From contig NBIV01000125.1 of NCBI GenBank assembly GCA_003194525.1, positions 124,001 to 188,000 of the forward strand: a stretch of 64,000 nt of DNA, in the 5' to 3' direction. Under the pieces are notes generated by a model, which saw only the letters and a list, made by a program, of their open reading frames with translations, did no database searches and was not told the DNA's origin. This stretch comes from Gracilariopsis chorda. Lineage: Eukaryota; Rhodophyta; Florideophyceae; Gracilariales; Gracilariaceae. Shown in pieces: positions 2,872 to 61,707 of this stretch (positions are counted from its first letter, which is position 1; every line of letters begins with the position of its first letter). The translations under genes and the position numbers were made by a program.

Positions 2872-3666
2872 ATGACCGCATTCGTTTCTTCTTTCGCAGG
2901 CGCCTCCGTGCGGCCTCAGTTTCAGGCCCAAGGTCTTCAGCAAACCGCTCCGAAGAGCTCAAAACGTTCTGTGGCTGCTCGACGAGTTCGAGTGACTCCG
3001 CGCGCAATGCAATCGGCGGGAGGCGGTACAATGTATGATGGCGCAAGGGCAGGTCCCCCTCCGGATCTTCCTTCACTGCTTCTCCACAATCGAATCGTTT
3101 ATTTGGGCATGAGCTTGGTCCCAGCCGTAACGGAGCTCATTATTGCCGAGTTCCTCTATCTTCAATATGAGGACGCATCCAAACCGGTTTACATGTACAT
3201 CAACAGCACTGGAACATCCTCAGCGGATGGTCAGAACGTCGGATTTGAAACCGAGGCGTTTGCCGTCGCCGACACAATGAATTACGTCAAAATGCCAGTC
3301 CACACCATCTGTGTGGGTCAGGCCTTCGGAATGGCGGCCATGTTACTCGCAAGTGGCGAGAAGACGCACCGCGCTGCCCTTCCAAACGCTACAATCATGC
3401 TTCATCAACCGCGCGGAAGCGCTCAAGGACAAGCCAGCGATATCGCTATCAAGGCGAAAGAGGTACTTTATAACCGGAGGCAAGCTTTTGATATCATTGC
3501 CGAGCGATCTGGGCAACCGGTTGAGCAAATTGAAAAGGACGCTATGCGAACAAAGTATTTCACCCCACAAGAGGCTGTTGATTATGGTCTTATTGACAAG
3601 GTACTCCTTTCCGAAAAGGAACTGCCGCAAAAAGCACCCACATTCTTATCTGCGCTTGACAAATAA
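2872..3666 (+). CDS. CLPR4: Plastid Clp protease non-catalytic subunit ClpR4
   Basis: Inactive subunit of the plastid ClpPR protease core. Residues 1-48 are rich in Ser, Arg, Gln and Ala and almost free of acids, as in a plastid transit peptide. From about residue 62 the sequence follows plant ClpR4 closely: PPPDLPSLLLHNRIVYLGMS, EFLYLQYEDASKPVYMYINS and GFETEAFAVADTMNYVKMP. The catalytic Ser position of GQAASMG reads GQAFGMA, so Gly153 replaces Ser. The His is kept (H178 in MLHQPRG). The Asp region reads RTKYFTPQEAVDYG without the Asp. It is therefore ClpR, not ClpP. 264 aa, intronless. The best single sign in the window that the organism has a plastid. Confidence 0.93.
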   Translation: MTAFVSSFAGASVRPQFQAQGLQQTAPKSSKRSVAARRVRVTPRAMQSAGGGTMYDGARAGPPPDLPSLLLHNRIVYLGMSLVPAVTELIIAEFLYLQYEDASKPVYMYINSTGTSSADGQNVGFETEAFAVADTMNYVKMPVHTICVGQAFGMAAMLLASGEKTHRAALPNATIMLHQPRGSAQGQASDIAIKAKEVLYNRRQAFDIIAERSGQPVEQIEKDAMRTKYFTPQEAVDYGLIDKVLLSEKELPQKAPTFLSALDK

Positions 3667-8122: not shown

Positions 8123-9302
8123 CTTGCGCACCCCGACGCTGTTATCATTTTCATGGTGCCGCTGTGTGATACGCTGATACCGGTGTGACGAGCTGCGTGG
8201 CGTATTATTTCGACGTACAGGCCATCAGTGTAAATGACGCCCTCTTCGTGGCCGTTGTACACCAAGCGTAGTTTTAGAAGGACGGAATGTACAATACGCG
8301 CATGCGTCAGCTGTGAACGCATAGCGCTCGCGCTGTGCGCTTAGAGAGGTGCGAGTAGAGTTGGCTCGAATGCGGAGTGAGTGCATGTATAGACGCGTTT
8401 TGTTGTGTTTTTCTTTTAATGGAAGGTTGTTCTACACACACCTTTTTGTACTGTTCGTAAAGCTGATGCTTCTCAAATTGTGCCGATATGCAAGGTCTGT
8501 TGGGGGGGGGGGGGTGAGCTCGCAACCGGTTTGTGCTTGTCGATACTGAAGATACCTGTGGGTTAAGGTATATGTACCTTGGGGCTTGGGGTACGTTGAC
8601 GTAGGTGTCAGTGCTATAAATACCAAACGGGTGGAACACATGCTTGGTGGTGATAGGGAGGGAGGGAGATTGGTTGTACGCCGAAGCACAGCCACACGAA
8701 CAGCGAAGACGAGATTACTTGGAATTGGGCAATCGCTTCTGTTCTGGCAACGGAGCAGGACATTGCGCAGACCGCACCGTAAAGGAGGCGGTGGTGAAGC
8801 GATGTTTGACTTGAAAGTGAACAAATGCTAAGTACTTGGCAAGTCAAGTTGGACTCATGTTGGCTGAGCTTTCAGTTGTGGTGGTATGTATTGGGTTCAC
8901 AGGGAACGGCGGCTGCGTTTAGCGCAATGCTGCGCTGTTCGTTCGGTGTTGGTTGCTGAGGTACAAATCACAACGGTGTGCCTTCGCGGTTGAGATTGCA
9001 TTGCTTGCAGCCAGTTATAGCTCTACAAGTGGCTCGCGCGCACACGGAGCACACGTTTCGTGATCCCATGGTGACAGGTTTTGGCGCCAAAAATGACACG
9101 GCGCGCGTAACGTCGTCACGTCGTCACCGCGGCTGATCCGGAGTCCGCTGCTCTTCGCCCACGGCAGTTGGCGACTTTGTTCGACTGCACAGACAGTCGA
9201 CGCGCAAGCCGTGTGCACTGCCATCTGCGTTGAGCCACTTCCCGCCCCCGGCTGCCCGCCTTCGATGTATACCGCAGTCCCGCTCGCGTAGCCCCCCGTA
9301 CT
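8123..9302. other. UBE2H-ATR intergenic region
   Basis: Holds the UBE2H 3' end and the ATR upstream region. A poly-G run lies at about 8501-8513. A TATAAATA string at 8615-8622 is about 690 bp before the ATR start, too far to assign with confidence. No gene seen. Confidence 0.5.
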
Positions 9303-47793: not shown

Positions 47794-48355
47794 TCATAGT
47801 GATCTGACACGAAGATCTTCGCTAACGTTGAGCGGGTCCACGCCATTCGACGCGCGGTTCGCGCCGCCGCCGCCGATGTCCACCACATGGTCGCACTGCC
47901 GCCTCACCAGCGTTCGCAGCCCGCGCCCTTCGCTGCCCACCACAACAGCCGTGCGTTGCCGTCACGAAAGCCGCGTCAGGGCCTCGCCGCCGTCGCCGGC
48001 AAGTGCCACCACTCGCCACCCGTCCGTTCTCAACCGGGCCAGCGTCCTCGATAGACTGCTCGTGGCAAACGTCTCAACCATGTCCGCCACCCCGGCAGAC
48101 GTCTTGCACACCGTCGCGTTAAGCAGTGCGCAGTTTTTTTCCGACAACACCACTGCATCAGCGCCTAGAAACAGCGCAGACCAAAGTGCAGCACCCACGT
48201 TATGCGGATCACTCACTTCATCCAGCACCAAGATCACCCCTTCAAATCCAGCCTGTAGAAGTTCCACCTCCGTTCCATACTTGAGCGCAATCGTTTGAAC
48301 AACAACTCTTTGGTGTTTTTGATGACCAAACAATTCATTTAACAGCCCTTTATCC
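47794..48355 (-). pseudogene. SpoU/TrmH-family (MRM1-like) rRNA 2'-O-methyltransferase remnant
   Basis: The encoded fragment follows mitochondrial MRM1-type methyltransferases: ELFGHQKHQRVVV, then GVILVLDEVSDPHNVGAALW, the SAM-knot motif AVVVGSEGRGLRTLV, and LNVS of motif 3. An in-frame TGA at 47962-47964 separates the first and second halves. The usual VAAGILL helix after LNVS is missing. At the 5' side, homology stops at about 48355, where a LINE fragment begins in the opposite direction. So the gene is cut at both ends and broken inside. A working copy would be expected elsewhere. Confidence 0.8.
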
Positions 48356-49370
48356 ATGCTCGGGGTGGGTACCACGTGTGGAGCAGAGGCAATTCCCCAC
48401 ATTCTCAGAGCAGTCACAGACAAGCTGCGTCGAGAAGACTTGGTGCTGCTTACCATTGACGCCAAGAATGCATTCAATTCAATAGAACGCGGAAAGCTCC
48501 TACAGGCCGCAACAACCCATTGTCCCGGAATTTCTCGGTTCGTCCACTTCTGTTACCAGCACCCCATGCCACTGCACTTTGGAGACTTTGCGATTTACAG
48601 CAAGCAGGGAACACAACAGGGAGACCCGCTAAGCCCTCTCTTATTTGTACTCACACTTCACCCACTGGTTCTGCTTTTTTAGGAGCGTTTCAAACCAATA
48701 CTCAACCTTTTCTACGCAGATGACGGCAACGTTCTTATCAACCGGGATGATGCAGCTCCATTCCTGACAGCTCTGTTACAGGAGGGGATAAAGATCGGTT
48801 TCGTCCCAAACATGAAGAAAACCAAAGCCTGGTGGTGGCGAGTGCCACAAATCTCCGGCTTCCCCGCTCAAATCACTAATGAGCACGCCATTTCAATACT
48901 TGGGACAGCAATCGGCCACGGCAATGCGGTCCGCGACATCTTAGCGTCTAAAAGACAAAATCAGACAAAAATGTTGGAGTCGCTTGCTAGCCTCAATGAT
49001 ACCAACATGGCCCTTACTCTTCTCCGCTTTTGTGCAAGCGCATGCAAAGTTATATACACTCTTCGAACCACTCCGCCGCATATTACCATATGTCCAACGT
49101 TGCTGCGATCTCGTCGAAAAGAGCGCCGTTCCTCCTCGCGAAATGACCACGACGCACACCTCACATACCGCACCCCGCTTCTGCATCTGTGCGCTAATGC
49201 GCTGCGCTACGTACGTAACACTGCAGCTCCGACGCTCACAAATGCCGCCTGCATCTCGTCCACTGCCCCTGCTTGGAGTGCACACCGCGACAGCTCGCTC
49301 TCGTCTGGCGTCGTGCCCACCGTTCGCTTCTCATCTCCCTTCATCTCGCCGTCGTCCCGCGCATGTTAGC
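48356..49370 (+). mobile_element. Truncated LINE-type reverse transcriptase fragment
   Basis: Non-LTR reverse transcriptase domain without its 5' half. The motifs in order are GVGTTCGAEAIPHILRAVTD, LLTIDAKNAFNSIERGKLL, SKQGTQQGDPLSPLLFVLTL and the catalytic NLFYADDGNVL. The frame is the same throughout but holds one TAG stop at 48680-48682, between the third and fourth motifs. After about 49100 the frame becomes compositionally odd. No poly-A tail is clear. It truncates the TrmH-like gene on its left. Confidence 0.8.
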
Positions 49371-50448
49371 AAACAACGTGAGTGGGCAGACATGCATTGA
49401 GCTTGTTTAGCTTCATAGTCTGTTTTGGATTAGGGGTTTTGAGACAACCAGCAGAGAAATGTCAATCTTGTTCTGTAGCTGATCAGATATGGTTTGCTTA
49501 ACTGTATCGATGGCTTTTTGCAGATCTTGCTTCGACAGAAGTCCTAGAGACGTCGAAATGACGTTGGCAACGAGCCGACAATTGTCTCGACCGACCAATT
49601 CAACTCTTTTGCAATCCATTTTGTCAAAGTTCTTTGCACCAGCTTCTCCCATGTTTCTCTGAAGGTCTGGTACAAGAAGGTCTACTTGATGACTCTTGCG
49701 GTGTAGCAAGCTTACTACTTTGATCATATGGCCACGTGAAACAAGCCATCCAAGAGGAATTCCAGTTACGCGAGACATTTCCATGTAGTTCGTCAACGCC
49801 AACAATTTATCCATGAGCTTGACAGGCAGTAGGGCATCCTTCAAACAATATACCGCCAACCTCCGGCGCGTCTGCTCATCACCATTCTGTAGAGCTGAAA
49901 TGATGCTGTAATGGACATGTTCTTTCTGCTGGCCAAGAAACTCTGCTGAAACCGAGTTCAGTGAGTACGACCGCAGCTTATACTCCCTAGTAATCAACTG
50001 CAACATATCAAATACTGTTCGTCCATGCAACGAAAACGACCGTGACTCAAGTGTCCCGAATGCCGAAGAACTCATCCGAATCTTTCTCATTGCCGTTTTT
50101 GCCCTTCACAATCGCCCTAGGAAAGGAAAATCGTTGGGCGCTAACTCTTTCGCGCGGTCCAGTAGATAAGGAAGGTCGAAATTCACGATGTTGTATCCAG
50201 TAAGAATATATGGGTCTGTAACTCGTACAAACTCTCTCCAAGCGGAGGGCATCGAGCTTTCATCTTCAAACGAAAGCACATCAGCCCCTACAATACAAGC
50301 GCAGCTTTTGAGCGTGAACACGACTTATGCGACAGGTTTCGGTTGCCCATAGTCCCACACATAGTTGGCAATGTGGATGACCCCTATCGTGTTGCGGTTC
50401 TCTGAAAATTCCTCTCCGGCCATCGGAGTCAACAGTTTCTTCCAGCAG

Positions 50449-51024
50449 TCACAACATGAACTGAACAGCGTCCAGGCTTTTGGAAAGCCCCGGGGGATAG
50501 GATGTATCATTGCTTTTATCTTCAGTGATCCACTGCTGCCACTGATCATCTTCGATATCGTAGGATAAGGCGTCAAACACTTTTCCAGATATAATCTGAT
50601 CTTCATAGCTCATCTGCATGGAATCTAGAGCCTTCTTATGGTGATGACACAGAGCTCTGCTATACAGAAAAACGCTGAAGTGCTCAAATTGTTCACAGCC
50701 TGGGATAGTCGCAAGGCTTTTCCTGCGTTTCAATATACCAGCCTCATCCAGACCATCAGTAGACGACAAAGACATGGACTTGTGCGCAAAGGAAAGCAGG
50801 GATTGCAAAGGTGTAGGAGGTGGTTGTGCGGGTGACTCCTGCGGCGACTTGGTGTGCGTTGGAGGTTTCTCGGGGTCGCTGTGTCCACCGCTCCCGGGTT
50901 TACGTGAGTATTCGCGAGGGGATCGCGGTCTTGGTCGGGAATTGTCGGATTCGTGACCTTCGTCGTCGGAATCTGTGGTAATGATGTGGGCTTTCCGCCG
51001 TCTTCGCGCAGAGGATATCGGCAA
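50449..51024 (-). CDS. Hypothetical protein within the POLD1 remnant
   Basis: 191-aa open frame, not recognised. The first ~100 residues are charged and Ser/Pro-rich (RRRRKAHIITTDSDDEGHES). The rest is helix-like (CEQFEHFSVFLYSRALCHHH, YEDQIISGKVFDALSYDIED). It lies between two POLD1 pieces and reads into the remnant at its 3' end. It could be an inserted gene fragment or chance. Confidence 0.3.
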   Translation of the reverse strand: MPISSARRRRKAHIITTDSDDEGHESDNSRPRPRSPREYSRKPGSGGHSDPEKPPTHTKSPQESPAQPPPTPLQSLLSFAHKSMSLSSTDGLDEAGILKRRKSLATIPGCEQFEHFSVFLYSRALCHHHKKALDSMQMSYEDQIISGKVFDALSYDIEDDQWQQWITEDKSNDTSYPPGLSKSLDAVQFML

Positions 51025-51564: not shown

Positions 51565-51972
51565 TCTGTGACCACGCAAGAGAACACTATTTCCTTGTTC
51601 AGTGACTCCAAACAACCGAAGAATTGCTGAACCATTCCGTTCTGTGGCGTAATCGTCGGACACGTCAACTTGCATGACTACCAAGGGGTCTGCTTGAGGA
51701 TTGAGATTCGGCAGCGGTGGACGTCTCCATACATCCCGAACCTTAACAGTTTGAAGGTCGGAAGCTCCCATCTCTCCCCAGTTACACTTGGTACACAAAG
51801 AATCACCCCCACAGGAATTGCTAGGCCGAGAAACACAATCCCGAGTTCTAGCAGCTCTTTGCCAAGAAGGCCTTTGTTAAGGACGATTTTCGCGCGAAAC
51901 CGGTGCATCCAAAAACATGTGGTGCCATAGTCATCGATAAACTCGAATCAGATACAAACGTACTGTACCTTC

Positions 51973-53367
51973 GTGAAAACAGTTAAAAATCATTCGAAAG
52001 CCACTAAGACCATCTCCAGCAGTGAAATAAACGCCAGACCACACACACACGCAACAGAAGTACGTCGCAAACTGAGATATAGTGCTAGCCATCGTCATCC
52101 CCAAAGCATGTCCGTTCCCAGCAGCGTTTCAACACGCGTTCGAAAAGGGAGAGGTTCAAAGAGGCCAAACCTTAGTCTCAGCGGCGATGAAAGACTCCGT
52201 GCTCCATACGAACTTGTGTCTTCTGCTTGCAGTGCTTCTACTAAGTCCAACATAAAGCTCGCTTTGAAAGTAATTACAGATTACGCCAAGATCAAACAAG
52301 CTCCTGATCCTATTAGAGTAACGCCGTCCAGTTCAACCTTTGTTTTGAATCTATTAGCGGACTACTGCCAATTTGGGAAGCCAAACAGCCTGAAGAACGA
52401 TGCAATGAATGCGTTAATACAAGGCTTGAGACACGTTTACTCTCAAAATGGTCACAGCAGGACATGGTTTGTTGATGAAGCAAATTCGAAAGCTCATGGA
52501 AACCCTTTAATAGGCAATCCCGAGCTCGATGCGTTACGAAGATCACACAGAGTGCATCTTGCGCATTATGGTGTTGTAACATTGCGCTCACAGCCTATAA
52601 CGGTTGAGCAGGTTTGTGATCACGCCGAGAAGTACTGGTATAGTGGTCATCAGCGATCTGTCAACATAATGGATGTTCTTCTTCATTCTATTATAGTCAT
52701 TGGTTTAAACTTGGGACTGCGTTATGATGAAGTTTCTAAGCTTAAAGTTGAAAATGTGTCTGTGGGATCCGGTGGATGCACTCTTATTATAAATGAGTCT
52801 GTAAAGAATTCTACCAAGCAGAGGATTTACAAACTTAGAGACTGGGCAGGGAACACGGCTTTACGATTTTCATTGCTCATGGATCCTTTTGTTGCAATTT
52901 ACTCCTGGTTGATGTTGCGTGGGAGCTCACGAGGACCTTTGTTTTGCGATGTACGAACTTCAGCAGGTGGAAATGTTCTTGACCATTCTCGGCACTGGAG
53001 CGCAAAAAAGTTCACGGAGTTCCTTCAACGGCGATTACTCTCAATAGGCGTTAGCGAAGGTGAGGTTAAAATGTACTCTGGACATTCCATCAAAAGGGGA
53101 GCAGTTCAGCTGTATCGATCGCTAGGTCTCAGAGATGAAGCGATCATGGAGATAATTCAGATGACTGGTCATCATGCATACGCAAACTATTGTGCGGCAT
53201 ATAACGACTGTGCCCCTCAATCTCTTCCTCGCTTTACATCTGTATCAGAGTACATCAGGCACGCCGAGAAGATATCCATAGAGTCAGATATTATTCACGA
53301 TAGTGTGGCTTTTCAAGCGTTCATGACAGACGTTTATGAACAGCAAACTGACGCACAGCATCATTAA
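51973..53367 (+). CDS. Tyrosine recombinase (Crypton-like)
   Basis: 464 aa, intact frame. Tyrosine-recombinase fold: an N-terminal SAM-like helical domain (~80-200, STKSNIKLALKVITDYAKIK) and a catalytic domain. Box I Arg is R250 in GLNLGLRYDEVSKLKVENV. A candidate beta-hairpin Lys lies in NESVKNSTKQRIYKL. Box II reads SGHSIKRGAVQL, like Cre SGHSARVGA, with His371 but Lys374 where Arg is usual. The late His is H401 (MTGHHAYANY) and the nucleophile is probably Y410 (CAAYNDCA). The first ~75 residues are basic and disordered. No reverse transcriptase or RNase H of the YR-retroelement kind adjoins it, so a Crypton-type DNA transposon is favoured. Confidence 0.85.
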   Translation: MKTVKNHSKATKTISSSEINARPHTHATEVRRKLRYSASHRHPQSMSVPSSVSTRVRKGRGSKRPNLSLSGDERLRAPYELVSSACSASTKSNIKLALKVITDYAKIKQAPDPIRVTPSSSTFVLNLLADYCQFGKPNSLKNDAMNALIQGLRHVYSQNGHSRTWFVDEANSKAHGNPLIGNPELDALRRSHRVHLAHYGVVTLRSQPITVEQVCDHAEKYWYSGHQRSVNIMDVLLHSIIVIGLNLGLRYDEVSKLKVENVSVGSGGCTLIINESVKNSTKQRIYKLRDWAGNTALRFSLLMDPFVAIYSWLMLRGSSRGPLFCDVRTSAGGNVLDHSRHWSAKKFTEFLQRRLLSIGVSEGEVKMYSGHSIKRGAVQLYRSLGLRDEAIMEIIQMTGHHAYANYCAAYNDCAPQSLPRFTSVSEYIRHAEKISIESDIIHDSVAFQAFMTDVYEQQTDAQHH

Positions 53368-53699
53368 ACACGTTTTCTAATACAAACAACTTCTTTAGGT
53401 CCTGTCAGGTGGAGTAGTCTACCACACCTCTATCTAACCAAGATAAGAATAAGTATATCTACGCCACATAATCAGTACTAACAATCGAACAGCTACTTAC
53501 ATAGACGTAAACAAAAGCGGTAAGATTTAAACGATGTGGCGTATATTTCCAAAGTTAGGGATAAGAAAGCACTAGAGAGGCCACACGAATCATGTAGAAT
53601 ACATAAAAGAGCCTCCGAAAAACAGAGGAGGTACGCAACGTAAAACAAACCACTTCAATACAAGATTTGCCACATATATCATTCTCCTGAAAAGCAATG
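53368..53699. other. AT-rich spacer before the hairpin array
   Basis: 3' side of the recombinase gene. A small inverted repeat (gcctccgaaaaacagaggagg) lies at about 53608-53630. No gene. Confidence 0.4.
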
Positions 53700-54800
53700 G
53701 AAGTGGCGTAACCGCCCTCTACATGGCGTCCAGCGGGCATAACCCACTGGACGCCATGTCCCGTAGAGGGAGGTGGCATATCCAGCCCTCCTCATGGCAT
53801 GGAATGGGCGTAGCCCACTCAGTGCCACACCAACAGACCCGAGGTGGCGTAACCGCCCTCTTCATGGCGTCCAGCGGGCATAACCCACTGGACGCCATGT
53901 ATCGTAGGAGGAGGTGGCATAACCAGCCCTCCTCGTGGCACCGAGTGGGCGTAGCCCACTCAGTGCCACACCAACAGACCCGAGGTGGCGTAACCGCCCT
54001 CTTCATGGCGTCCAGCGGGCATAACCCACTGGACGCCATGTATCGTAGGAGGAGGTGGCATAACCAGCCCTCCTCGTGGCACCGAGTGGGCGTAGACCAC
54101 TCGGTGCCACACCAACAGACCCGAGGTGGCGTAACCGCCCTCTTCATGGCGTCCAGCGGGCATAACCCACTGGACGCCATGTATCGTAGGAGGAGGTGGC
54201 ATAACCAGCCCTCCTCGTGGCACCGAGTGGGCGTAGCCCACTCGGTGCCACACCAACACACCCGAGGTGGCGTAACCGCCCTCTTCATGGCGTCCAGCGG
54301 GCATAACCCACTGGACGCCATGTATCGTAGGAGGAGGTGGCATAACCAGCCCTCCTCGTGGCACCGAGTGGGCGTAGACCACTCGGTGCCACACCAACAG
54401 ACCCGAGGTGGCGTAACCGCCCTCTTCATGGCGTCCAGCGGGCATAACCCACTGGACGCCATGTATCGTAGGAGGAGGTGGCATAACCAGCCCTCCTCGT
54501 GGCACCGAGTGGGCGTAGCCCACTCGGTGCCACACCAACACACCCGAGGTGGCGTAACCGCCCTCTTCATGGCGTCCAGCGGGCATAACCCACTGGACGC
54601 CATGTATCGTAGGAGGAGGTGGCATAACCAGCCCTCCTCGTGGCACCGAGTGGGCGTAGCCCACTCGGTGCCACACCAACACACCCGAGGTGGCGTAACC
54701 GCCCTCTTCATGGCGTCCAGCGGGCATAACCCACTGGACGCCATGTATCGTAGGAGGAGGTGGCATAACCAGCCCTCCTCGTGGTACGAAGTGGGCATAG
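53700..54800. repeat. Array of ~7.8 tandem 141-bp units built from stem-loops
   Basis: Units start at 53700, 53841, 53982, 54123, 54264, 54405, 54546 and 54687 (last one partial). Each unit is two diverged ~70-bp halves, and each half has a short and a long stem-loop. The long ones are arm ATGGCGTCCAGCGGG with loop CATAA, and arm GTGGCACCGAGTGGG with loop CGTAG; each is followed by its complement. The short ones have TGG-CATAA-CCA and GGCG-TAAC-CGCC cores. The first unit is the most diverged. Because 141 is a multiple of 3, long frames (up to 386 codons) run through on both strands; these are artefacts of the period. Confidence 0.95.
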
Positions 54801-54938
54801 CCGTCTTGGTGAGCTTTTTATATCTCATTCTATCTAGGTACAATAGTATAAGTTTTACATGTGAACTGATTACCGAAAGATAATGAGATTGTCTTTGTTG
54901 TGTTTAAACTATTTTATACTTCGCACAAAACGTAAACG

Positions 54939-55826
54939 CTATCTACTTTTCAGTATAGCAGATATGGAGTGAGGTCTTTCTCGCAGCCTAAAGTGCTGAT
55001 TGAATCCGTCAATAGCTGCTTTCCATTTTTCAGTAGTTTCTTCTTCGTTGATTCGTAAGGTAACTGGACCAAACTCGGATATTAGTTCAATAAGAGCCCT
55101 ATAGCGTAGAAACAGGTTCTTTTGACCCGTTTTGGACCACATCCAGTCTTCATAGCCAACAATATACTTTCTGCGATTTGCCGCATTCCCAAAAAGTCTG
55201 ACTGCTTTATACCCTCTGTCACTAGACCCTTTACGCCAAATTTCTATGGCTTCTTCGGCTGTTTTAGGCATCCATGGTATGAATCGAACAAATGCGTTGA
55301 GCTTCTGATCTGCCTTTAGTTTTCCAGAAGATGAAATAGAGGAAGTTCGAAACTGAAACTCATTTTCGGTGCTGGATCTGTTAGTACAAGCTAATGCATT
55401 CTGTTGAATCTTCGAAAGTGATGACATCTCGTTTGTCACTTGGTTATCAGCGACCGTAAAACCCTCTTCGGATTGCCGTTTTTGCTGCAAATTGCTACAA
55501 TCTGTACGATTGTTTTCAAGCCTTCGTTGATGTATCAAGAACAGTCGATGTTCTAGTTCTTTCTTCCATACTTCCATTCTTTCGTCATTTTTATTTGACG
55601 AAGCACAAGATTGATTGAGAATCTTACGACTTATTTCAACGCCTTTCGTGGATTCAAGCTCTATGACTTGTCTTGGTGTTTGAAACCCAATTCCATCCCC
55701 ACCTCCCTGTATAGGCTTAATGTACCCATAGCGTTCCATGGTTTGAAGATATTCGTTGATAAAGGAATTGTCTATGTCTGGTAAATGTTGGAGATTTAGA
55801 CGAGTAGAAGTACTATACCTATGCAA
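54939..55826 (-). CDS. Protein with possible GCR1_C-like DNA-binding region
   Basis: 295 aa, intact. Residues ~185-255 hold a Trp/basic helical region: TAEEAIEIWRKGSSDRGYKA, then LFGNAANRRKYIVGYEDWMW and LFLRYRALIELISEFG. Its pattern (W-x-x-G, then WR/RR, then a basic helix ending R-x-x-I-x-x-I) resembles the GCR1_C domain found in fungal regulators and fungal Crypton proteins, but this is a weak match by eye. The N-terminus (1-180) is polar with a coiled-coil-like stretch (WKKELEHRLFLIHQRRLENN). Convergent with the recombinase across the hairpin array. It might recognise the array; that is inference. Confidence 0.5.
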   Translation of the reverse strand: MHRYSTSTRLNLQHLPDIDNSFINEYLQTMERYGYIKPIQGGGDGIGFQTPRQVIELESTKGVEISRKILNQSCASSNKNDERMEVWKKELEHRLFLIHQRRLENNRTDCSNLQQKRQSEEGFTVADNQVTNEMSSLSKIQQNALACTNRSSTENEFQFRTSSISSSGKLKADQKLNAFVRFIPWMPKTAEEAIEIWRKGSSDRGYKAVRLFGNAANRRKYIVGYEDWMWSKTGQKNLFLRYRALIELISEFGPVTLRINEEETTEKWKAAIDGFNQHFRLRERPHSISAILKSR

Positions 55827-59378: not shown

Positions 59379-61707
59379 TGAAGTGCAACGCCCTCAGGAA
59401 GGGATTCTTGGTACTTGAATGCTTTCCCGATATTATCGGTTGTGTAGTTTTTATATGAACTACACCCCAAAATGGTGGATATGGACACGTGGGACACGGT
59501 TTTGGGTCAATTGGCGGTTAGCTACAATAATGGACGTTGCCACGGAATTTGGAGCATTTTAGTTGATTTTATTTATTATTTTTACACCCATTTGTGGGAA
59601 GCTAGTACTTATTGCGACGAAGCACTGCCGTCGCACCAATAAACTTTCTCCAACAAGGGACCTCAACCTGGGGAATGGGCTCTAGTTGTTGTCGCTTCCG
59701 TGGCTTCTCAACTCCTCCTTGGAGGGAAACGCCGTGAACCACGGGACCTCTAACCCCGTTGCACACCTAAAGAGACAATCCTTGGGAGTATAATTGTTCC
59801 AATCACATTGGTGTTTCGCCCTGTATAGGTAGTCCTGTCCACCGGCATTGCCGTATTTGTTTGTCGCTCTTGCGACTCACCCTCGCCCGCTCTTTCTCCT
59901 TTCCCTTCACTCCTCCTCCTCCCCCCCTTGAGGGTAGTACATCCCGCTACCCGTGGCCCTCGTGTGCGCATCCGTCCACACATGTGGTGCAATGTCCGAA
60001 AGGGGAAAAACACCGAAAGACGTTCGGGATCTTCCTCTCACGAGGTGAACCGAGTTGGGTAGAGCCGTCCCAGAGGTGTCACGGCGAGGCCGGTTTGTAA
60101 GACCAGGGACACCTGTCGCGACTCGCGCAGGGAGGTGAAGGCGAAGAATCGGTATCCGCGTGAGCGGGGTGTGATCCTCAGTAGAGGTATGTTTCCCCGT
60201 AAATGGGGGTGTGTGAGCGGATGCGCACACGAGGGCCGCGGATAGCAGGAGGTGCTACCCTAAAAAGAGGAAAAAGAAAGGGCGAAGAGGAGGAATAGAG
60301 GGCGAAGTGAGTCGTGAGAGCGACGGGGACGAACGGCGATGCCGGTAACAATATCCCTACACAGGGCGAAACACCAATACAATTGGAACAATTATAATCC
60401 CAGTGATGGGTCCCTTTAGATGTGCAAGGGGGTTAGCTGTCCCGTGGTTTACGGCGTTTTCCTCCAAGAAGGAGTAGAATACGCACGCAAGCGGCAACAA
60501 CTAGAGCCCATTCCCCAGATTGGGGTCCCTTGTCGGGGAAGGGTTATTGGTGCGACGGCAGTGCGCCGTCGCACTAAGTACTAGCTTCCCAGAAATGGGT
60601 GTGAAAATAATAAATAAAATCAACTAAAATACTCCACATTTCGTGGCAACATCCACTACTGTGGCCAACCGCCAAATGGCCCAAAACCGTGTCCCACGTG
60701 TCCATACCCACCATTGTGGGGCGTAGTTCATACACACACTACACCACCGATAATATTCGGAAAACGATCAGGTACGTCTGTGTTCTCGGAACGCTAGTAC
60801 TTGGGGCTAGTTTGGTCTGATTGAAATATGTCGTCCAAAACTTCTGCAGAAAATGACGGATCTCGAATGCAGAGGTAGTTTTTGTGGTGCAACGCCTCAA
60901 AGGGGAGAAACACCGAAAGACGTTCGGGATCTTCCTCTCACGAGGTGAACCCAGTTGGGTAGAGCCCTCCCAGAGGTGTCACGGCGAAGCTGGTTTGTAG
61001 GACCAGGGACACCTGTCGCGACTTGCGCAGGGAGGTGAAGGCGAAGAATCGGTATCCGCGTGAGCGGGTGTGATCCTCAGTAGAGGTATGCTTCCACGTA
61101 AGTGGGGGTGTGTGAGCAGATGCGCACACGACAGCCGCGGATAGCGGGAGGTGCTACCCTAAAAAGGGGAAAAAGGAAGGGCGAAGACGAGGAAGAGAGG
61201 GCGAAGTGAGTCGCGAGAGCGACGAACAAATACGGCGATGCCGGTAACAATAACCCTATACAGGAAGAAACACCAAGACACTTGGAACAATTAGTACTCC
61301 CAATGATGGGTCTCCTTTAGATGTGCAAGGGGGGTGAACTTCCGTACACTACGGTGCTTCTCTCCAAGGAGGAGTTGAGAACACGCGGAGGCGGTAAAGC
61401 TCAGAGCCAATTCCCCAGGTTGGGGTCCCTTGTTGGGGAAGGTTTACTGGTGCGACGGCAGTGCGCCGTCGCACTAAGTACTAGCTTCCCAGAAATGGGT
61501 GTGAAAATAATAAATAAAATTAACTAAAATACTCCACATTCCGTGGCAACATCCACTACTGTGGCCAACCGCCAATTGACCCAAAACCGTGTCCCACGTG
61601 TCCATACCCACCATTGTGGGGCGTAGTTCATATACACACTACACAACCGATAATATCGGGAAAGCGTTCAAGTACCCAGAATCCCTCCCTGAGGGCGTTG
61701 CACTTCA
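59379..61707. mobile_element. 2.3-kb element with ~600-bp terminal inverted repeats
   Basis: The left end tgaagtgcaacgccctcagg is exactly repeated in reverse complement at the right end, except for one base within the first 20. The inverted similarity continues for ~600 bp (59379-59980 against 61107-61707). The middle plus right arm exists twice in direct orientation: about 59980-60765 and 60879-61665, offset ~900 bp. The inner copy lacks the last ~40 bp of the terminus and is followed by ~115 bp of unique spacer. No transposase frame is seen. A non-autonomous long-TIR (Mutator- or foldback-like) element that has partly duplicated is the best reading. No target-site duplication was found. Confidence 0.8.

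Follow-up and report, generated by a model that had tools for sequence, protein, structure and literature searches.

Two hairpin types, alternating and related by complementary stem changes, form a tandem array between a tyrosine recombinase ORF and a convergent ORF

The repetitive hairpin-forming elements (RHE) described from sponge mitochondrial DNA include two related types, one of 15 and one of 18 bp. Few complementary substitutions separate their arms, and the elements often occur next to each other in double or multiple hairpins; from other sponges, GC-rich forms with tandem multi-repeats are described (PMC2800124). REP/BIME sequences are palindromes of 20-40 bp that form like or unlike dimers, and their clusters are described as dimers reiterated in tandem, some of them between convergent ORFs (PMC3733652). 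Crypton DNA transposons are eukaryotic, use a tyrosine recombinase as the recombining enzyme and are described as having no long terminal repeats (PMC3212892).

The locus considered here lies in a 64-kb stretch of DNA, which was analysed as a whole and is called the window below. As originally predicted, a tandem array is situated between the converging ends of a recombinase ORF and a second ORF. The features are as follows.

51973-53367, plus strand: tyrosine recombinase ORF, 464 aa, first listed start GTG.
53703-54815, no strand assigned: tandem array, 7.8 units of 141 bp.
53844-53913, no strand assigned: half-unit of type a (example), with short hairpin S1 (20 bp), long hairpin L1 (35 bp) and a tail (15 bp).
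53864-53898, no strand assigned: L1 dyad, 15-nt arms flanking CATAA, identical in 8/8 units.
53914-53984, no strand assigned: half-unit of type b (example), with S2 (21 bp), L2 (35 bp) and a tail (15 bp).
53935-53969, no strand assigned: L2 dyad, 15-nt arms flanking CGTAG, six variable columns in units 1-7.
54939-55826, minus strand: convergent ORF, 295 aa, no family found.

Tandem Repeats Finder delimits the array at 53703-54802, with a period of 141, 7.8 copies and 97% matches, and the decayed end of the last unit extends to about 54815-54826. The units are near-identical and arranged head to tail, and the array has the homogenised interior and decayed edges of a satellite-type repeat: units 2-7 depart from the consensus once apiece, unit 1 (53703-53843) at 11 sites and unit 8 at 23, every one of them within its last 50 positions. 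Each 141-bp unit consists of two diverged halves of 70 and 71 bp, and the alternation of types a and b is unbroken throughout. The 16 half-units align well, except in the tails and at the end of unit 8; when the two halves of unit 4 are compared, 18/20 positions are identical in the short hairpin, 24/35 in the long hairpin and 3/15 in the tail. Neighbouring hairpins are separated by at most 15 unpaired bases. Read directly, all four hairpins of a unit start with RTGGCR and carry the common apex GGCRTARCC. Read on the plus strand, L1 has a single mismatch, C.A; on the minus strand this becomes G-U, and L1 folds fully there. In unit 1 only (53715-53770), CCCTCTAC and GTAGAGGG could lengthen the L1 stem by eight pairs with a 5-nt bulge; as read from the unit letters, this possible extension is lost in units 2-8, and the next short hairpin gains GAGGAGG/CCTCCTC.

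Local folding predicts 32 hairpins on either strand, the last one decayed and weak, and the count of about 31 stem-loops given earlier is thereby borne out for the good ones. On the plus strand, 14 of the 16 long hairpins fold at -26.3 to -34.4 kcal/mol, L2 of unit 1 at -18.4 kcal/mol and the weak last L2 at -8.9 kcal/mol. The folding of one unit gives z = -8.4 as RNA and -8.6 as DNA, with 0/200 shuffles as stable in each case. Folded locally, the whole array reaches -647.7 kcal/mol on the plus strand and -702.1 kcal/mol on the minus strand, and the best of 30 simple shuffles each reaches -362.0 and -398.5 kcal/mol, respectively. Dyads of 15+5+15 with at least 12/15 Watson-Crick pairs occur 14 times within the array and twice elsewhere in the window.

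The arms of the two long hairpins differ exactly as had been noted. Pairs 1, 6, 7 and 9 are altered on both sides with pairing retained (4/15 compensated), the C.A mismatch at pair 12 of L1 is a T-A pair in L2, and the other 10/15 pairs are unchanged, with none broken. The arms share 10/15 positions, a likeness equalled by shuffled arms in 1,209 of 200,000 trials. L1 and L2 are likely of common descent, because this likeness, the position, the length and the flanking short hairpins all agree. Assuming common descent, independent change would yield the observed pattern with P = 4.5e-5, a value conditional on five left-arm and four right-arm changes, and the comparison of pairs thus supports the claim that pairing was preserved between the two hairpin types. 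A covariation alignment of 16 half-unit rows (7 distinct sequences) has 91.8% of its cells paired, nine cells with both sides changed and a covariation score of 0.233. For each of these three values 0/500 shuffles reach as much, a result that sequence relatedness alone may suffice to give; the four pairs with both-side changes are equalled in 88/500 shuffles and the seven further pair types in 352/500. The covariation data are in effect one old comparison, that of a with b. A recurrent palindromic hairpin is thus present in related types with complementary stem changes, as in known hairpin elements, and the L1/L2 pattern shows that pairing was retained in the past; the cause is not thereby shown. 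Covariation is not a proof of selection, because correction of one arm from the other, which is known in yeast, would leave the same pattern.

What, then, has kept the arms complementary? Among units 1-7, 13 columns are variable (6/60 in stems, 0/10 in loops and 7/71 elsewhere), and stems are not spared relative to the other columns (P = 1.0). By hand count, with changes taken as departures from the consensus that imply no direction, the altered L2 pairs of units 1-7 comprise five broken pairs, one T.G wobble and no compensated pair: unit 2 has C.A at pair 8, units 3 and 5 have G.A at pair 15, and unit 1 has three mismatches and one T.G. The L2 of unit 8 has nine altered pairs, of which six are broken, two are wobbles and one (pair 9, G-C to A-T) is compensated, again by hand count. 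Selection for folding, offered earlier as one source of the covariation, is not supported among the units of this one array, where the altered L2 pairs are mostly broken and stems vary like the rest. These recent changes tell against strong selection. Two states in the L2 of unit 1 are intermediate, namely A.C at pair 1, between the A-T and G-C types, and T.G at pair 7, between the T-A and C-G types. Every one of the six stem columns that vary in units 1-7 lies in L2 (L1 0/35, L2 6/35; P = 0.025, uncorrected), and the invariance of L1 beside the variation of L2 speaks against pure drift.

The gene content of the window, as read from the sequence, is eukaryotic and of nuclear type. Four of five ORFs scanned correspond to an ATR-like kinase, a carbonic anhydrase, a protein kinase and an enoyl-CoA hydratase, and the fifth gave no match in that scan. 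A RING protein and a phosphorylase are also encoded in the window, together with pieces of a reverse transcriptase and of a family B DNA polymerase. The protein at 2872-3666 is ClpR-like and has a plastid look, and the long ORFs of the window are without introns; at the level of a guess, these two features would fit a red alga. Beside the recombinase island, 47962-51024 is a patchwork of fragments, with a reverse transcriptase piece on the plus strand, a DNA polymerase B piece on the minus strand and, by eye only, a minus-strand piece resembling an RNA methyltransferase. At 60480-60600 and 61380-61500, a stretch of about 100 bp or more occurs twice, nearly identical and 900 bp apart; it contains a GC-rich hairpin, GTGCGACGG..CCGTCGCAC, and is probably another repeat family.

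The third-position GC is 0.40 in the recombinase ORF and 0.35 in the convergent ORF, compared with 0.48-0.68 in nine other ORFs (array frames left out; the lowest of the nine, 0.48, is a polymerase fragment). The low values suggest that an element was inserted. We infer that this island is a mobile element; no second copy of it and no element termini were found. In an alignment with three bacterial plasmid integrases, R250, H371, R375 and Y406 of the recombinase are invariant, and the ORF therefore has the catalytic R, H, R and Y of a tyrosine recombinase, as a Crypton would; its GHH motif is absent from the three plasmid integrases. The 20 records that the recombinase matched in a plasmid collection are all integrases, with identities of 22-30% and alignments covering 30-66% of the recombinase. 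PHROGs gave a weak integrase match (E 0.0018), NCBIfam one weak, unrelated match and Pfam no match even at E 10. No relatives were found in phages at E 0.01 or, with the single protein as query, in viral contigs, where the recombinase alignment gave one match, of 26%. For the convergent ORF, two short-chain dehydrogenases among solved structures (E 0.2) and matches in Pfam (E 0.035), PHROGs (E 0.1) and NCBIfam (E 0.047) were all taken as chance, and plasmids and viral contigs gave no match. We had suspected a resemblance of this ORF to GCR1_C; neither ORF matched that domain at E up to 10, in a search whose control was likewise blank. Alignment-free structure predictions of the two ORFs were of unusably low quality (mean pLDDT 42.6 and 37.2).

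A model built from the array's own half-units was used to scan the window up to E 10. It gave 32 matches. All 16 half-units were recovered, and their palindromes were matched 15 times more on the minus strand. The remaining match, at 8197-8280, was weak (13.3 bits, E 0.049); it was read and rejected as chance, and it gives the impression of lying in coding DNA. No further array of this unit was found elsewhere in the 64 kb, and nothing in the array flanks exceeded 3.2 bits. The exact pattern of the L1 core had 0 matches in viral contigs, and two units gave no blastn match in phages and plasmids at E 0.1. The S motif was matched once each in two genome contigs, both bacterial by title, and these matches were judged to be chance.

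Variants shared among units bear on the history of the array: 119A is found in units 1 and 2, 112A in units 3 and 5, and 134C in units 4, 6 and 7. The sharing suggests that the block of units 3-4 was copied to units 5-6 (282 bp) and unit 6 then to unit 7 (141 bp). Since the a/b alternation is never broken, the visible exchanges would have proceeded in whole 141-bp steps. Our tentative preference, held a little short of even confidence, is for a satellite-type tandem repeat that forms hairpins and lies in a mobile-element-like island, with pairing kept mainly by mutation bias. The sequence indicates that a hairpin unit of about 70 bp was duplicated, that the two copies drifted apart to become types a and b, and that the resulting dimer of 141 bp then multiplied, possibly by unequal exchange or hairpin-aided slippage. 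Stem pairing may have been kept mainly by the copying of one arm from the other at replication or repair, that is, quasi-palindrome correction, and selection on it would be at most weak. Unequal exchange within the array is favoured because units 2-7 are near-identical and both edge units are decayed, and stepwise change of one arm because of the in-between states at pairs 1 and 7 of the unit 1 L2. Mutation-driven pairing is favoured because the stem variation of units 1-7 is unspared and uncompensated, and the inserted island because both flanking ORFs are low in third-position GC. Against this preferred explanation stand the identity of L1 in all eight units beside a variable L2, the one compensated L2 pair of unit 8, and the single apex motif of all four hairpins with 0/10 loop columns variable in units 1-7. 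A post hoc observation, the clustering of TGGCGTAA words near the array, also counts against it. We rank this mutation-driven hairpin repeat first, dyads bound by a recombinase second and a minus-strand RNA role third.

The words near the array are of interest for the second of these explanations.

51644-51652, plus strand: GTGGCGTAA, upstream of the recombinase.
53460-53543, no strand assigned: inverted word pair TACGCCAC / GTGGCGTA, the word opening each S1.

Outside the array there are four TGGCGTAA words, three of them between 51645 and 55238 (the GTGGCGTAA site, 52281 and 55231). In the block 51600-55300, TGGCGTAA ranks 2 of 25,644 8-mers, and in wider blocks 6 and 21; the enrichment is post hoc, as the block was chosen after the hits and 126 7-mers and 132 8-mers of the unit were tried, and it gives a hint at most. 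The long dyads might serve the adjoining tyrosine recombinase, or else the protein encoded by the convergent ORF, as double-stranded binding or core sites, and the array would then be a cluster of sites within the element's own cis-acting DNA. The dyads are 35 bp long, with 15-bp inverted arms around 5 bp, a plan close to that of the 34-bp lox and FRT sites. The adjacent recombinase, whose adjacency makes a link with the array possible, retains R, H, R and Y, and both the invariance of L1 and the nearby words agree with a role as sites. However, 4/15 arm pairs differ on both sides, which disfavours sequence-specific binding by one protein, the strict a/b alternation bears no trace of L1 x L2 exchange, and neither a second copy nor termini were found. 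We consider this explanation unlikely, but the likeliest of those other than our own.

Somewhat less likely still, the array may act as RNA, most plausibly in a minus-strand transcript, in which it would supply 3' stem-loops that end or stabilise the message of the convergent ORF. The array sits at converging 3' ends, and, folded as RNA with no span limit, it is more stable on the minus strand (-752.2 versus -685.2 kcal/mol); L1 likewise reaches -31.0 kcal/mol on the minus strand versus -26.3 on the plus. The minus strand folds better because C.A and A.C of the plus strand read as U.G and G.U there. By hand count, 4/5 distinct stem transitions of units 1-7 read as G-U on the minus strand, and 5/6 transitions favour that strand when the loop edge of L1 is included, but these counts are non-significant (one-sided, 0.19 for the first and 0.11 for the second), and two further transitions, in unit 8, favour the plus strand. 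In units 3, 5 and 8, L2 is less stable on the minus strand than on the plus, no Rfam match was obtained at gathering thresholds, and the lack of any compensated stem change in units 1-7 also weighs against a role as RNA. The strand bias toward minus is a hint; any RNA that matters should be minus-strand, in sense with the convergent ORF.

A further idea, which we regard as doubtful, combines a recombinase with folding: a eukaryotic tyrosine-recombinase element would keep the two alternating 35-bp dyads as cis-acting sites that are read as folded hairpins through the GGCRTARCC apex rather than through arm sequence, and the arms would be free to drift while pairing. The narrower analogy of the original prediction, that the hairpins are folded single-stranded recombination sites used by the recombinase like integron attC, is very improbable. 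Its starting point stands, as the hairpins do adjoin a tyrosine recombinase. The analogy goes no further than this adjacency: there are no cassettes between the hairpins, the dyads are almost perfect and lack extrahelical bases, which in attC set the strand choice, and the integrases matched in the plasmid collection are only 22-30% identical. That the array codes for a repeat protein is hardly credible: 141 is divisible by 3, one plus frame is stop-free across the whole array, and open frames at 53719-54883 reach 386 aa on the plus strand and 374 aa on the minus strand, which has another of 268 aa, but the codon scores (-0.017 and -0.048 for the two longest, +0.014 for the third) fall below those of the flanking ORFs (+0.032 and +0.042), if by small differences, and it is the complementarity of the arms that is kept.

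Two consequences make the locus worth attention. First, were the hairpins to act as sites for the recombinase, the locus would represent a eukaryotic tyrosine-recombinase element whose recombination DNA is read by structure, a mode that to our knowledge is known only from bacterial integrons and some phages. Second, if pairing was kept by mutation alone, the array would be a compact natural case of stepwise compensation that misleads covariation tests for RNA structure, with the in-between states preserved in unit 1.

How does the array compare with the systems already described? The original prediction knew of no described array of this form. Paired complementary hairpin types are described in sponge mitochondrial DNA (PMC2800124), and the kind of array is already known; a nuclear example that alternates strictly and has a tyrosine recombinase next to it was not found described in the literature searched, which lay mostly outside subscription journals. 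Integron attC arrays share with this one the hairpins beside a tyrosine recombinase but hold gene cassettes between their sites, whereas the dyads here are near-perfect, symmetric and without cassettes. Cryptons resemble the island in being eukaryotic and carrying a tyrosine recombinase; the words hairpin and palindrom- are absent from the main text of the Crypton paper (PMC3212892), which gives terminal 4-6-bp repeats as a Crypton feature and the GCR1_C domain for CryptonF only, whereas the array is rich in hairpins. REP/BIME share palindrome dimers, tandem clusters and the convergent-ORF setting with the array, but they are prokaryotic, of high copy and marked by a GTAG/CGTC end tag, with a proposed RAYT-mediated spread (PMC3733652), whereas the array is eukaryotic. 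Sponge RHE, as described, are like the array in their related hairpin types, complementary stem substitutions and frequent tandem arrangement. They are mitochondrial and dispersed in the genome, with variable loops and conserved stems, whereas the array occupies one locus among nuclear-type genes, beside a recombinase and in strict a-b alternation, and in its units 1-7 the L2 stems vary and the loops are invariant.
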